A stretch of DNA of 44,621 nt from Ignavibacteria bacterium RIFCSPLOWO2_12_FULL_56_21 (GTDB lineage: Bacteria > Bacteroidota > Ignavibacteria > UBA10030), in contig MHAK01000123.1 in the NCBI GenBank assembly GCA_001802945.1, positions 662 to 45,282 on the forward strand, read 5' to 3'. Positions 16,273 through 20,334 of the stretch are shown piece after piece. Each line of letters opens with the position of its first letter. Position 1 is the stretch's first letter. Under the pieces are notes generated by a model. That model saw only the letters and a list, made by a program, of their open reading frames with translations. It did no database searches and was not told the DNA's origin. Made by a program: the position numbers and the translations under genes.

Positions 16273-17439
16273 ATGCCGCAACTTTCCCGATACTCCTTCC
16301 TCGATCTCTACCGCGGTATCGTCGTTGTCCTCATGCTCGAGGGGCATTTGGTGCGCGAGGTCCTGGGAGCGGGGTGGCATGACACGCCGGGATTCCGCTT
16401 CCATGAAATGATCCACGGGCTCACAGCTCCGGGATTTCTTTTCGGCGCCGGGTTCACATTTGCCATTGCATCGCAAAAAAAGGGGGACCTGCTCCGGGGG
16501 CTAAATCGGCACGTTGTCCGGCGTCTCTGGCGCGGGATCATGCTCATCCTTATCGGCTACGCCCTCCACATACCTTATCTTTCCCTCACCAAAACACTCT
16601 CTCACGCCACACTCCTGCAATGGCGGGAGTTTCTCCAGTTTGATGTTCTTCAGGTAATCGGCCTGGGACTTTTCACGCTTCGCATTCTGTATCTTATCAT
16701 TCGCGAAGAACGGTGGTTTCTTTCAATTATTGCCGCCACGGCGTTCGCGGTCGTGTTTGTGACTCCGATGGCTTGGGAGGTCTCCGCCAGGGGAGATACT
16801 CCGCTGTGGCTGGCAACGGCGATCAGCGGAGCATTCGGATCTCCATTTCCCGTCTTCCCGTCCATCGCATTTCTTTTTGCGGGAGTTGTTGCGTCCTGGG
16901 GATTTCTTTCAGCTGCAAGGGCGGAGCAGGAGAGAGCGTATATGTTACGATTGATGACTGGAGGCGTCTTCATGCTTGGCGGAGGGGCGCTGTTAGACGT
17001 GGTCCCGTTCAATCTCCCGGGACATATGGACTTCTGGTCGACCTCCCCCGGCTTCTTTTGGATCAGGTTGGGCGTGTTGTTCGTCGCACTCGGCGCGTTG
17101 TGGTTTCTCGAAAACTCGGTCTTGGAAACATCTCACGCACGTGTCTGGATGCCGTCATGGTTGACGACGATGGGCATGGAATCGTTCTTCGTCTACATCC
17201 TCCATCTCTTGATGTTGTACGGATGGGTGACGAATCCCGACGAGAACATCGGCGGCTGGTTGGGACACGACCTGGGTCCGTTGCAGGCGGGGCTCTGGTC
17301 GCTGCCATTCATCGGCATCCTCGCGATCGCAGCCCGATGGTGGCAGCATGTCAAACGCCGGCATGCGCCGATCGTGAGAATGGGTTACTGGTGGATGGGA
17401 CTTACGGTGGCGGGGGAGTTTCTCAGGAGAGCTTGGTGA
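16273..17439 (+). CDS. DUF1624/heparan-glucosaminide acetyltransferase-like membrane protein
   Basis: A 388-residue inner-membrane protein with about ten membrane segments. The N-terminus FLDLYRGIVVVLMLEGHLVR, followed by GLTAPGFLFGAGFTFAIA, matches the DUF1624 or YeiB/HGSNAT-like acyltransferase superfamily, in which an early His and Arg lie near the active site (here His25 and Arg14). These proteins are thought to move acyl groups across a membrane onto a sugar or glycan, but few bacterial members are characterised. It starts 12 bases after a repeat element and stands alone. It could instead be assigned to acyltransferase 3; the family is moderately sure. Confidence 0.7.
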   Translation: MPQLSRYSFLDLYRGIVVVLMLEGHLVREVLGAGWHDTPGFRFHEMIHGLTAPGFLFGAGFTFAIASQKKGDLLRGLNRHVVRRLWRGIMLILIGYALHIPYLSLTKTLSHATLLQWREFLQFDVLQVIGLGLFTLRILYLIIREERWFLSIIAATAFAVVFVTPMAWEVSARGDTPLWLATAISGAFGSPFPVFPSIAFLFAGVVASWGFLSAARAEQERAYMLRLMTGGVFMLGGGALLDVVPFNLPGHMDFWSTSPGFFWIRLGVLFVALGALWFLENSVLETSHARVWMPSWLTTMGMESFFVYILHLLMLYGWVTNPDENIGGWLGHDLGPLQAGLWSLPFIGILAIAARWWQHVKRRHAPIVRMGYWWMGLTVAGEFLRRAW

Positions 17440-17559: not shown

Positions 17560-18255
17560 TTACCTGGCGAGTACCATCCTCGTTACCTTCACCTCTCCCC
17601 CCATCGACAATCTGGCGAAGTACGTGCCTGATGCAAGCGTAGCTCCGTTGTGCTGCGCGACCCAGTTTGCGCTAAACGTTCCAGGAGCAACTTCAGCGTC
17701 GGCGAGCACGCTCACTTCGCGGCCGGTGATATCATATATTGCGAGCCGAACATGTCCGGGTTTGCGCACAGTGTAGCGAAGCTGCGTGGAAGGATTGAAT
17801 GGATTTGGGAAGTTCTGTTCCAGCGTAATGGATGGAGTCGAATCATCTCGAAGCCACGTTCCTTCCGTGCTGACGTCGAGTCCTTGTGCATCGGGGCTTC
17901 CCAAAACTACGTCTGCGAGTCCAACAAAACCGCTACCCGAGAACGGAATGACCGCAACTTCGCCGGTGCCGGACGGCAGTTGATGATCTGTTGAGCTGAT
18001 GATCACGACGCTCATCGTCGTGTCGTTGATCATGTGTCCCGCGACGATCCAGCCTAACGTCCTCCTCCCCTGCGTGATGTTCCCAAGCGAAACCGAAGAA
18101 GAAACGCTCACCCGCATCTGAAGTCCCCCAACGACATCCTCGTTGGAAAGTACCAACCTCAGTTCATTCCCTGATTGCTGAACGGTGAGCTTGTTCCCGC
18201 CGACCGTCGTTCCGACAAGTAAGAGACTCGCTATTAGCATCCATCCCAATCGCAC
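17560..18255 (-). CDS. Secreted protein with type IX sorting domain
   Basis: A 231-residue protein. It has a signal peptide (1-19) and a beta-rich domain (about 22-135, cohesin- or Ig-like with VVGGLQMRVSVSSSV and GTGEVAVIPFSGSG). The C-terminal sorting domain (about 145-231) has the classic LEQNFPNPFNPST start, IYDITGREV middle and LASGTYFARL end. The last domain directs export through the T9SS outer-membrane translocon and is normally cleaved. The protein is small for such cargo and has no enzyme domain, so a surface-binding or adhesion role is possible. It is monocistronic, converging with the DUF1624 gene. The sorting-domain call is secure; the N-terminal domain is less so. Confidence 0.88.
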   Translation of the reverse strand: MRLGWMLIASLLLVGTTVGGNKLTVQQSGNELRLVLSNEDVVGGLQMRVSVSSSVSLGNITQGRRTLGWIVAGHMINDTTMSVVIISSTDHQLPSGTGEVAVIPFSGSGFVGLADVVLGSPDAQGLDVSTEGTWLRDDSTPSITLEQNFPNPFNPSTQLRYTVRKPGHVRLAIYDITGREVSVLADAEVAPGTFSANWVAQHNGATLASGTYFARLSMGGEVKVTRMVLAR

Positions 18256-18523: not shown

Positions 18524-18552
18524 TTGACAAATGCTCGTGCCGACTGTATATT
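18524..18552 (+). promoter_or_regulatory. Consensus sigma70-type promoter
   Basis: TTGACA (18524-18529), a 17-base spacer and TATATT (18547-18552): the -35 and -10 boxes are one mismatch from perfect in total. Transcription would start near 18559, about 25 bases before the thioredoxin-like gene. The spacer upstream (18256-18523) is AT-rich compared with its surroundings and has a small inverted repeat at 18379-18406 but no gene. Confidence 0.65.
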
Positions 18553-18584
18553 CGCGGAGCGCCAGCGCGTAAAATGTTTCGCGC

Positions 18585-19235
18585 ATGTCGCATTTCATCA
18601 AGAGGGGTGCGTTGTCGCGTCGTATCGTCATCTTTTCAGCAATCCTGCTCTGTACTGTCGGCAGTATTATCGTCCTGCTCACCGCTTTCCATGCGCGTTC
18701 GATCAAAGGGAAGGTGCGCCCCGAACTTTCCTTGCGTTCGCCTGAAGGAGTGCCGTTTCAACTTGGCCTTCCCTATGGACGTCACCACGTGCTTGTGTTC
18801 TTTTCCGTGACGTGTCCGTTTTGTCGCGTGGAGCTCGAACATGTCCGGCGGCTCAGGCCAATGCTGAACGAATGTGACATTATGCTTATCTCCGTCGGTC
18901 CGACAGTCTCGGTTCGATCTTTTCTGGACTCGACACGTTTGACTTTTCCGGCCCTTTTGATGAACCCTGCAGATGCGTATATCCAGTTGGGAATTCGGAA
19001 TATCCCTGCAATCCTGCTTGTCAACGAACGCGATATCATCGAACATGTGGCCGTGGGCTCGCGTTCGTTCATTGAAGATAGTCTGATGCTTGCTGATTTC
19101 TGCCGTGAGCGTGCGCCGGAGCCTTCGGCGTTGGGATCCTCGGGGGGAGGATGGGTCGCCGATGCGTTCTGGCTGCGCCCACGGTGGTTGATCCCGAAAC
19201 TTGAATCTGTGGAAAGGTCACTCTCTGCTCGCTGA
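18585..19235 (+). CDS. Membrane-tethered thioredoxin-like protein
   Basis: A 216-residue protein. One membrane anchor (about 14-34, after an Arg-rich start) leads to an AhpC/TlpA-type thioredoxin fold (about 42-170): HHVLVFFSVTCPFCRVEL holds the CPFC redox motif (Cys77, Cys80), and the cis-Pro loop is IRNIPAILLV. The domain would face the periplasm, where such proteins reduce or reshuffle disulfides. The tail of about 45 residues is not recognised. ATG 18585 has no clear ribosome site; an in-frame TTG 27 bases later follows AAGAGGGG and could be the true start. The next gene encodes a small exported protein with five cysteines, a plausible client. Confidence 0.75.
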   Translation: MSHFIKRGALSRRIVIFSAILLCTVGSIIVLLTAFHARSIKGKVRPELSLRSPEGVPFQLGLPYGRHHVLVFFSVTCPFCRVELEHVRRLRPMLNECDIMLISVGPTVSVRSFLDSTRLTFPALLMNPADAYIQLGIRNIPAILLVNERDIIEHVAVGSRSFIEDSLMLADFCRERAPEPSALGSSGGGWVADAFWLRPRWLIPKLESVERSLSAR

Positions 19236-19370
19236 TCTGATGATGGCGAACTGTGTCGCGGGTCCTGGCCGGCCCCCGGGCACTGCTTCATGGGACGTTG
19301 TCAGCGGAGGGCCGCGGCGGGCGGAGGGTGATTCACATCATCGCTCATCGTCTTTAGAAGGAGATTCGTT

Positions 19371-19676
19371 ATGCGACGCAGTATCGAAACCGGAATCATG
19401 GCGCTGTGCGCCCTGCTTGTGTTGTTGCTGCCATTGACCTCTGCTGCCGCCTCGGTCGATAAAACATCGGCGAACGCAACGCTCAACGAGGCGACGTGCC
19501 TTGCGGGAGCCCAGCAGAGTTGCAGCGACCAAGCGACTTTGGCGTTCTTGAACTGTGCCGAAACGTTCGGTCTGACATGGGAGGACGTCGAGAACGGGAC
19601 CACCGGGGTCTACGTTTGCGCAACCTGGGGTACGCTGGCGTACGTGTGGTGCTCTATCGTGTCAATCTTCGCCTGA
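19371..19676 (+). CDS. Small exported cysteine-containing protein
   Basis: A 101-residue protein with a strong ribosome site (AGAAGGAG, 7 bases before ATG). It has a signal peptide (about 1-26, hydrophobic core LCALLVLLLPLTSAAA) and a mature part of about 75 residues with five cysteines: NEATC, QQSC, FLNC, YVC and VWC. The odd number leaves one free or for pairing between molecules. The C-terminal third is hydrophobic and aromatic (YVCATWGTLAYVWC). I do not recognise a family; it could be a small exported structural or signalling protein. It follows the thioredoxin-like gene by 135 bases and is closed by a strong stem-loop at 19694. Confidence 0.7.
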   Translation: MRRSIETGIMALCALLVLLLPLTSAAASVDKTSANATLNEATCLAGAQQSCSDQATLAFLNCAETFGLTWEDVENGTTGVYVCATWGTLAYVWCSIVSIFA

Positions 19677-19693
19677 CCGCACCCACTCTGCAC

Positions 19694-19724
19694 AATGGAG
19701 CCGGATCACATCTCCGGCTCCATT
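19694..19724 (+). terminator. Stem-loop terminator after the Cys protein gene
   Basis: AATGGAGCCGGA (19694-19705) and TCCGGCTCCATT (19713-19724) form a perfect 12-bp stem with a 7-base loop, followed by a weak T-rich TCTAT. It starts 17 bases after the stop codon. The short T tail makes it a likely but not textbook Rho-independent terminator. Confidence 0.7.
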
Positions 19725-19761
19725 TCTATCCGATCTCTATAGAACAGTGCTTTCCCTCATC

Positions 19762-20334
19762 ATGCTCCGTAACGCTTGTCGACGAAACGGTTCGAATGCG
19801 TTGCTCTGGACGCTCTCATCAGCGCTTGCTCTGTGTACAACGACAACTTCAGGTCAAGCTCAGCTTGTCGATAATCCGGTCGAACGATTTGAATTCGTCA
19901 GCTGGACGGACAAACCGGCCGACCTTATCAATACCTTCGGCTATACGTGGTTTCGAAGCGGACGACTTACCCCTCCATGGGTGGATGTTCCACAGAACGA
20001 CTCGCTGATGTCGTTTACGGGCCGCGACACGGCATTCGGTTCTCAGGTTGCTCTGTTTTTCAATTTTACACGCGACGATTCCGTCCTTGTCGCATTAACG
20101 CTGATCTGCGTGCCCCCGTCAACAAAGGGGGATGTGAACGATCTGCTGGATGACTGTGAGGCGGTCATCCAGGAATCGTATGGCGAACCCCAGTCTTCGA
20201 TCACCATTCCGTTCATCACAAAGACGCTGGTGTGGGAAATGCAACGGTCAACGGTCCGCCTGGTACGTACCCGGACGATGATGGACGCCCTGGCCGTCAT
20301 CTACAAGCCTAATTCGCTTTCACAAGGAAGGTGA
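19762..20334 (+). CDS. Exported protein of unknown function
   Basis: About 190 residues from ATG 19762. An in-frame GTG 15 bases earlier is possible, and neither has a clear ribosome site. It has a signal peptide with an Arg-rich start and hydrophobic core (about 14-26), with likely cleavage after SGQAQ. The mature part is rich in aromatic and polar residues (FGYTWFRSGRLTPPWVDVPQ) and has two cysteines (ICVPP and DDCEA). I recognise no domain. It follows a terminator, so it probably has its own promoter, but it shares the exported character of the two genes before it. Confidence 0.65.
   Translation: MLRNACRRNGSNALLWTLSSALALCTTTTSGQAQLVDNPVERFEFVSWTDKPADLINTFGYTWFRSGRLTPPWVDVPQNDSLMSFTGRDTAFGSQVALFFNFTRDDSVLVALTLICVPPSTKGDVNDLLDDCEAVIQESYGEPQSSITIPFITKTLVWEMQRSTVRLVRTRTMMDALAVIYKPNSLSQGR

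Follow-up and report, generated by a model that had tools for sequence, protein, structure and literature searches.

Three consecutive genes in a 44,621-nucleotide stretch of DNA from Ignavibacteria bacterium RIFCSPLOWO2_12_FULL_56_21 (hereafter the window) are, in our assessment, probably a minimal member, devoid of a C39 peptidase, of a family of cassettes for Sec-exported double-glycine peptides, with a disulfide-stapled and most likely bacteriocin-like product. The genes lie on one strand, 3' of a promoter, and encode a redoxin, a peptide precursor, and a partner protein, P3 (Table 1).

Table 1. Positions of the features of the peptide locus, counted from the first nucleotide of the window
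Feature	Position	Strand	Remarks
Sigma-70-like promoter, TTGACA-N17-TATATT	18524..18552	+	11/12 consensus positions; hexamers, spacing, and flank also in G001
Membrane-anchored redoxin, 216 aa	18585..19235	+	CPFC at 18813-18824 (residues 77-80); one N-terminal hydrophobic segment
Precursor of exported twin C-x10-C peptide, 101 aa	19371..19676	+	Conserved in G001; aligned with 15 related precursors
Sec-type signal peptide, residues ~1-26	19371..19448	+	Sequence read by eye: MRR start, hydrophobic core, AAA end
Eroded double-glycine leader, ATLNEATCLAGA	19476..19511	+	Corresponds to LTQAEMDCIVGG in G001; relatives have L-x3-E-M-x4-G-G
Predicted core peptide, 54 aa	19512..19673	+	Cys codons 19521, 19554, 19617, 19650; Cys gaps 10/20/10
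12-bp stem-loop, gap between peptide and third gene	19694..19724	+	12 perfect pairs; z=-6.3
Exported partner protein P3, 195 aa	19747..20334	+	Relatives in G001 and 13/26 strong C39 cassettes

The initial annotation had described a near-consensus promoter upstream of the redoxin gene and a strong stem-loop behind the small ORF, and both were borne out, the promoter recurring in G001, the one other genome of the genus that we examined. The 70-nt stretch holding the stem-loop has a folding energy of -23.3 kcal/mol. A terminator scan did not flag this hairpin because its T tail is too short for the T-tail rule. The peptide ORF is preceded by a strong Shine-Dalgarno sequence. Upstream of the trio, both genomes of the genus carry a gene that we read by eye as an HGSNAT-like acyltransferase (window 16273-17439, forward strand; L010 2833-3210, reverse strand). 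Between this gene and the redoxin, the window has a gene for a small protein bearing a T9SS type A sorting domain (17560-18255, reverse strand); the matching interval in G001 could not accommodate one.

The first gene had been read as encoding a membrane-anchored, thioredoxin-like CPFC protein, and the anchor segment, the CPFC motif, and a match to the Pfam AhpC-TSA model (PF00578) are all present, the score barely exceeding the cut-off (27.5 bits against 26; E=3.3e-6). With its thioredoxin-fold match, CxxC motif, and membrane anchor, the protein has the features of an AhpC-TSA/TlpA-like redoxin. It scored below the NCBIfam cut-offs for ResA (35.2 versus 170 bits), StoA (33.5 versus 210 bits), and MauD (23.9 versus 188.6 bits; a weak match, E=2.5e-5). 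When a profile of the window and G001 redoxins was run over the 98 genomes of the order, the redoxins of the cassettes described below ranked at the top among other genera. Their active site is CxHC, the type found in DsbA, in 19 of 24 cases; G001 has CPHC. In a redoxin tree, ordinary redoxins with a WCPPC motif formed a separate branch (100/99 support), apart from the set containing the window redoxin; the tree did not place the window redoxin within the cassette redoxins.

The same three genes occur in identical order in G001, with protein identities of 37% for the redoxin, 28% for the peptide, and 31% for P3. The region upstream of the G001 redoxin shares the promoter hexamers, their spacing, and the flank TATATTCGCxGAGCG. 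When the small proteins of the two genomes were aligned over their exported parts, the score was 8.2 SD above that of shuffled sequences, and five of five cysteines matched. Neither of the two outcomes that the initial annotation had named against itself occurred: the linkage of redoxin and peptide recurs in G001 and in relatives, and the small frame is conserved as protein. TlpA-type redoxins are common, with 12 AhpC-TSA matches in the window genome, and an ordinary TlpA/ResA thioredoxin could lie by coincidence beside two unrelated exported orphans. The shared gene order, promoter, and peptide alignment remove both coincidence and a noncoding small frame; with the linkage in relatives and the split of the WCPPC redoxins from the window's set, we regard a coincidental TlpA neighbor as ruled out, its probability being negligible.

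The precursor contains a cysteine at residue 13, within the signal peptide, and five more (43, 51, 62, 83, and 94) in the exported part. The earlier description of an exported 101-residue protein with five cysteines thus stands as to export and number, but Cys-43 falls in the leader-like part, at position -5 as in G001 and the relative L067, so the core has four. The complete leader motif, L-x3-E-M/L-x4-G-G, is found in G001 and is incomplete in the window, where ATLNEATCLAGA retains Glu at -8, Cys at -5, and Gly at -2 and has Ala at -12, -7, and -1, giving a Gly-Ala cut site. On its leader sequence, the window peptide is an eroded relative of double-glycine-leader peptides, not a canonical member.

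A plain homology search with the 101-residue protein over 61 genomes returned G001 (E=0.0047) as the single convincing match outside its own genome; most of the remaining matches contained stops or were due to chance, and one, in G004, was later confirmed as real. Among comparisons of the window core with other cores, G001 reached a Z score of 4.1 and the next best 2.2, and no distant core was significant. In agreement with the statement that neither of the last two ORFs was recognized as belonging to a family, the 101-residue protein matched no Pfam or NCBIfam model, the G001 peptide matched none in NCBIfam, and P3 gave at best a subthreshold DUF6301 match in either collection. At these cut-offs the window peptide likewise matched no described bacteriocin family. 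Below threshold, the peptide of relative L036 matched a class IIb bacteriocin model over its leader (E=0.021), and one cassette peptide gave E=0.013 with the JUQZ family, reportedly tied to a paper on a Brevibacillus bacteriocin.

In relatives, the genes form a larger cassette in the order redoxin, stand-alone C39 peptidase, short exported peptide, and often a P3 relative. The peptidases match PF03412 (E values of 5e-24 and 1e-24) and have the invariant Q, C, H, and D; each has an N-terminal hydrophobic segment, a predicted membrane anchor, and no ABC part. C39 frames in the order measure 134-301 aa, against mostly ~730 aa elsewhere in the phylum, and an ABC-linked C39 was rejected for these cassettes. 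Leader trimming would take place in the periplasm because a Sec signal precedes the leader and the C39 protein has its own anchor and no ABC part. An alignment search with C39 yielded 26 public loci, of which 18 (L066-L083) are cassette-type, recorded as Bacteroidota/Bacteroidetes, Ignavibacteria, or plain "bacterium," with three from Acidobacteria or Terriglobia. The Prevotella and archaeal C39 loci (L084-L091) were weak matches in which we found no cassette, and these were discarded.

Several records recur under our genome handles and under public ones (such as L042/L066/L107 and L031/L080/L097). After duplicates were removed by the last 120 C39 residues, 38 C39 loci were examined, comprising 26 strong ones (E<=1e-40) and 12 others (L084-L091, L094, L115, L116, and L157). 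A redoxin lies immediately upstream in 22 of the 26 distinct strong loci, and 13 have a P3 relative. The four redoxin misses are L068 (a contig edge), L071, L078, and L083; in the last two, the C39 frame is overlapped by a redoxin ORF. In 18 of the 26, a peptide in which the strict leader motif ([LM]-x3-[EDQ]-[LMI]-x4-G-[GAS]) comes after a Sec-like signal lies within 900 bp downstream of C39. Among the 2686 small ORFs of these loci, only 20 had this combination; the two beyond the 18 may be copies in duplicated loci (L150 and L156). The eight loci missed by the strict motif (L070, L072, L073, L081, L082, L083, L103, and L153) all show a relaxed motif by eye; the L072 peptide has no signal peptide from its listed start, and the L081 site is Gly-Met. 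The mature peptides are mostly strongly hydrophobic, Cys-rich, and far more variable than the leaders. This recurrent co-occurrence, checked as had been suggested, argues strongly that the redoxin is a dedicated disulfide partner of a small secreted Cys peptide, as originally proposed.

In three full cassettes scanned with Pfam (L072, L100, and L105), the downstream genes encode MauE homologues (E values from 4.6e-21 to 3.7e-23) and Yip1-domain proteins, the Yip1 match of L105 being barely subthreshold; L072 also has an ABC ATPase gene. MauE is the membrane partner of disulfide formation in methylamine dehydrogenase maturation, where it pairs with MauD. No MauE-like ORF was recognized beside the window genes, and one unlinked copy lies on contig C106 of the genome. 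ABC transporter and Yip1-domain genes were also read 3' of the cassette in L072 (7118-10644; the one checked with Pfam), L073 (6943-10302), and L081 (7504-12337), with MauE following the cassette in L072 and apparently in L073; the transporter and Yip1 genes possibly serve export or self-protection. A second set of loci (L045, L047, L049, L050, L055, and L058) has small exported proteins with 6 to 13 cysteines beside TlpA-like redoxins (CPFC, CPIC, CPYC, and CHFC), and we noticed no double-glycine leader in these exported Cys proteins. DoxX/MauE-like genes stand in the same order beside such proteins in L049, L050, and L055, with several copies in L049 and L050.

We then assessed the co-occurrence of peptide and peptidase across the order. 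A profile of 16 precursors, mostly peptides beside C39 genes (A9), gave 22 matches in 20 of 98 genomes, mostly one copy per genome. C39 was present in 20 of the 98 (weakly in G041), and 18 genomes were common to both sets. Because A9 was built mostly from C39-adjacent peptides, only genomes outside its contributors provide a blind test. In these 87 genomes, eight of the nine with a peptide were among the 10 with C39 (hypergeometric 7e-9, a guide only, as the genomes are related, near copies of A9 members being present in G031 and G085), and each of the eight peptides lies ~1 kb or less from C39. The genome of the window and G093 have a peptide and no detected C39; in G018, the C39 is accompanied by a different kind of peptide (L077), which A9 missed. 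In G093 and G095, loci L174 (228-1752) and L178 (51-1573, reverse complement) combine a redoxin and P3 with a twin C-x6-C peptide whose Gly-Gly is intact, and no C39 is adjacent.

Where the cassette sits bears on the fate of C39. G025 carries it complete, immediately next to dnaX and lon, and a PorV-like gene lies at a few kb on the opposite flank. In G001, C39 stands alone between dnaX and the PorV-like gene, and the trio lies on the same contig at a distance of 48 kb. The window genome has lon, dnaX, and the PorV-like gene side by side, the latter two separated by ~210 bp that contain no C39. We take these genes to be lon, dnaX, and PorV-like from a reading of their sequences. The dnaX/PorV-like interval is a recurring home of the cassette (L109 5393-12135, L094 1774-8087, and L141 72-5807). 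Searches of the window genome found no C39; as the assembly is 95% complete and in 138 contigs, a copy elsewhere could be missed, but the syntenic site is empty nonetheless. The window species thus appears to be a reduced case, in which C39 was lost, the ancestral C39 site stands empty, and Gly-Gly changed to Gly-Ala; peptidase loss and cut-site erosion would coincide here, in a single comparison.

The absence of a detected C39, the empty syntenic site, and the Gly-Ala cut site would also suit a decaying remnant, whose peptide no longer matures and whose genes are drifting. We consider this improbable, as five exported cysteines with their two spacings of 10 residues, the promoter, the Shine-Dalgarno sequence, and three open frames have been kept at 28-37% protein identity, and G093 has another trio that lacks C39 yet keeps Gly-Gly intact. 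Moreover, according to PMC5557850, GA is sometimes cut by C39 domains in addition to GG, so that Gly-Ala is in places an accepted site.

The fixed place beside lon and dnaX would fit a housekeeping or signaling peptide as well as a bacteriocin. A secreted signaling or self-recognition peptide would mature in the same way, its hairpin being sensed by sister cells with no killing, and some double-glycine peptides are indeed signals. The vertical-looking inheritance at this site in G001 and G025 and the mostly single copy per genome point in that direction, whereas no sensor kinase or receptor was recognized beside the cassettes inspected, and hydrophobic mature parts that vary far more than their leaders are the usual bacteriocin pattern. 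We therefore hold signaling to be unlikely, if a serious contender; the surface or signaling peptide raised initially appears less likely than a bacteriocin-like product.

The spacing of the cysteines suggests how the peptide might be stapled. Of 25 tabulated peptides, 16 have four post-leader cysteines, and in nine of these the first gap equals the third, the value always being 6 or 10: 10/20/10 in the window, 10/18/10 in G001, 10/9/10 in L070, L098, and L099, 6/9/6 in L066, 6/12/6 in L067 and L071, and 6/8/6 in L075. In 20,000 shuffling trials, at most five such peptides arose, versus nine observed. The other seven have unequal gaps (five at 13/0/8, L069 at 12/15/14, and L158 at 12/13/13). 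The six-Cys peptide of L077 is also symmetric (6/3/30/3/6), and C-x6-C pairs were read by eye in the L174 and L178 peptides, found by profile. Gaps of 6 and 10 correspond to two and three helix turns.

AlphaFold2, run with the single sequence of the 54-residue window core, predicted helices at residues 4-19, 23-27, and 31-53 with a pLDDT of 89.9 in the best of five models (85.8 to 56.4 in the other four). In this model, Cys-4 and Cys-15 lie on the first helix and Cys-36 and Cys-47 on the last, the arrangement of a twin-CxnC helical hairpin, with equal-spaced Cys pairs on two helices. From the Cys spacing and the model, we infer disulfides joining core residues 4-47 and 15-36 (C51-C94 and C62-C83 in precursor numbering). 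A MAFFT alignment of the cores only (A10) was excluded from folding because it misaligned one window Cys. Searches of solved structures with the peptide and P3 gave nothing useful, and a fold search with the hairpin model gave a single, meaningless match.

The third ORF had been called an exported protein with two cysteines, which is what we see: a signal and two cysteines beyond it. The P3 model had a pLDDT of 72.5, and its best PDB fold match was a modest one to YjgB/DUF4309 (4ygt; E=3.2e-4, TM 0.39/0.49); by sequence, P3 did not match DUF4309/YjgB.

Together, these data lead us to propose the following route. The precursor would be exported by Sec and lose its signal peptide, and in the periplasm the membrane-anchored, DsbA/MauD-like redoxin would form two disulfides that staple the two helices. 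Judging from domains and motif, the membrane-anchored periplasmic C39 of relatives would cut after Gly-Gly and remove the leader; in the window species, since C39 is gone and the site is Gly-Ala, the peptide would keep its leader or be cut by another protease. P3 would be a periplasmic partner, perhaps a chaperone or, as a guess, an immunity protein. Because the leaders are conserved and the cores behind them hydrophobic and hypervariable, we favor a membrane-active peptide of bacteriocin type as the most likely product. We recognized no dedicated exporter for the outer membrane. This, the redoxin next door, and the long hydrophobic stretch formed by the last helix of the window core would also be expected of an unsecreted peptide residing in the periplasm or inner membrane, with disulfides as a switch, that modulates an envelope process such as redox or stress sensing. 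A leader-removing C39 and a hypervariable core, as in the relatives, would be unusual for a regulator, and we think such a resident peptide rather improbable.

According to PMC5557850 and PMC3897388, an ABC exporter normally trims double-glycine peptides with its peptidase domain as they exit the cytoplasm, and the latter paper gives the class II bacteriocin leader consensus as LSX2ELX2IXGG. The cassettes resemble class II bacteriocins in their L-x3-E-M/L-x4-G-G leader, variable hydrophobic Cys-containing core, and nearby C39. They differ in that a Sec signal precedes the leader, which would make cutting periplasmic, and in that C39 is stand-alone and membrane-anchored rather than part of an ABC exporter, or, in the window, absent. 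FapD of the Pseudomonas Fap amyloid system is likewise a C39 peptidase with a Sec signal that acts in the periplasm, and PMC5557850 describes Fap proteins as lacking canonical C39 sequences, whereas the cassette peptides carry a leader. The FapD model matched cassette C39s with E values of 2.7e-6 and 5.3e-7, far under its cut-off, and FapD has other substrates and genes. We know of no redoxin in the Fap system. The weak MauD match of the window redoxin and the MauE homologues of the scanned full cassettes recall MauD/MauE, but the cassette substrate is a short peptide, and the window locus has no linked MauE. Mitochondrial twin CX9C (CHCH) proteins have two helices joined by two disulfides between paired, equal-spaced cysteines and a dedicated oxidant. 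The predicted window hairpin would share the two stapled helices and paired Cys, yet the family is bacterial, its cysteines are spaced at 10 or 6 instead of 9, and searches by sequence and by fold turned up no match.

None of the cassette peptides tested reaches the cut-off of a Pfam or NCBIfam model, and we found no description of such a cassette in the open-access papers that we searched. Tentatively, and with slightly less than even confidence, we suggest a new Gram-negative class of ribosomal peptides, in which a Sec signal is followed by a second, bacteriocin-type leader, a DsbA/MauD-like redoxin (with MauE in full cassettes) staples a twin C-x6-C/C-x10-C hairpin, a membrane-bound C39 releases it in the periplasm, and P3 confers immunity. 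The window lineage would represent a next step, with loss of the peptidase and erosion of Gly-Gly.

The cassette lineages in this set are almost all metagenome assemblies of Ignavibacteria, other Bacteroidota, and some Acidobacteria, from which, to our knowledge, no bacteriocin has been described; the Cys-spacing rule and the leader motif offer a direct search key. Combining a Sec signal with a double-glycine leader would move trimming to the periplasm, where the peptide can be oxidized and folded. This would be a different logic for making disulfide-stapled peptides, one that could be borrowed for peptide production, and the window's genus may serve as a natural experiment in protease loss.
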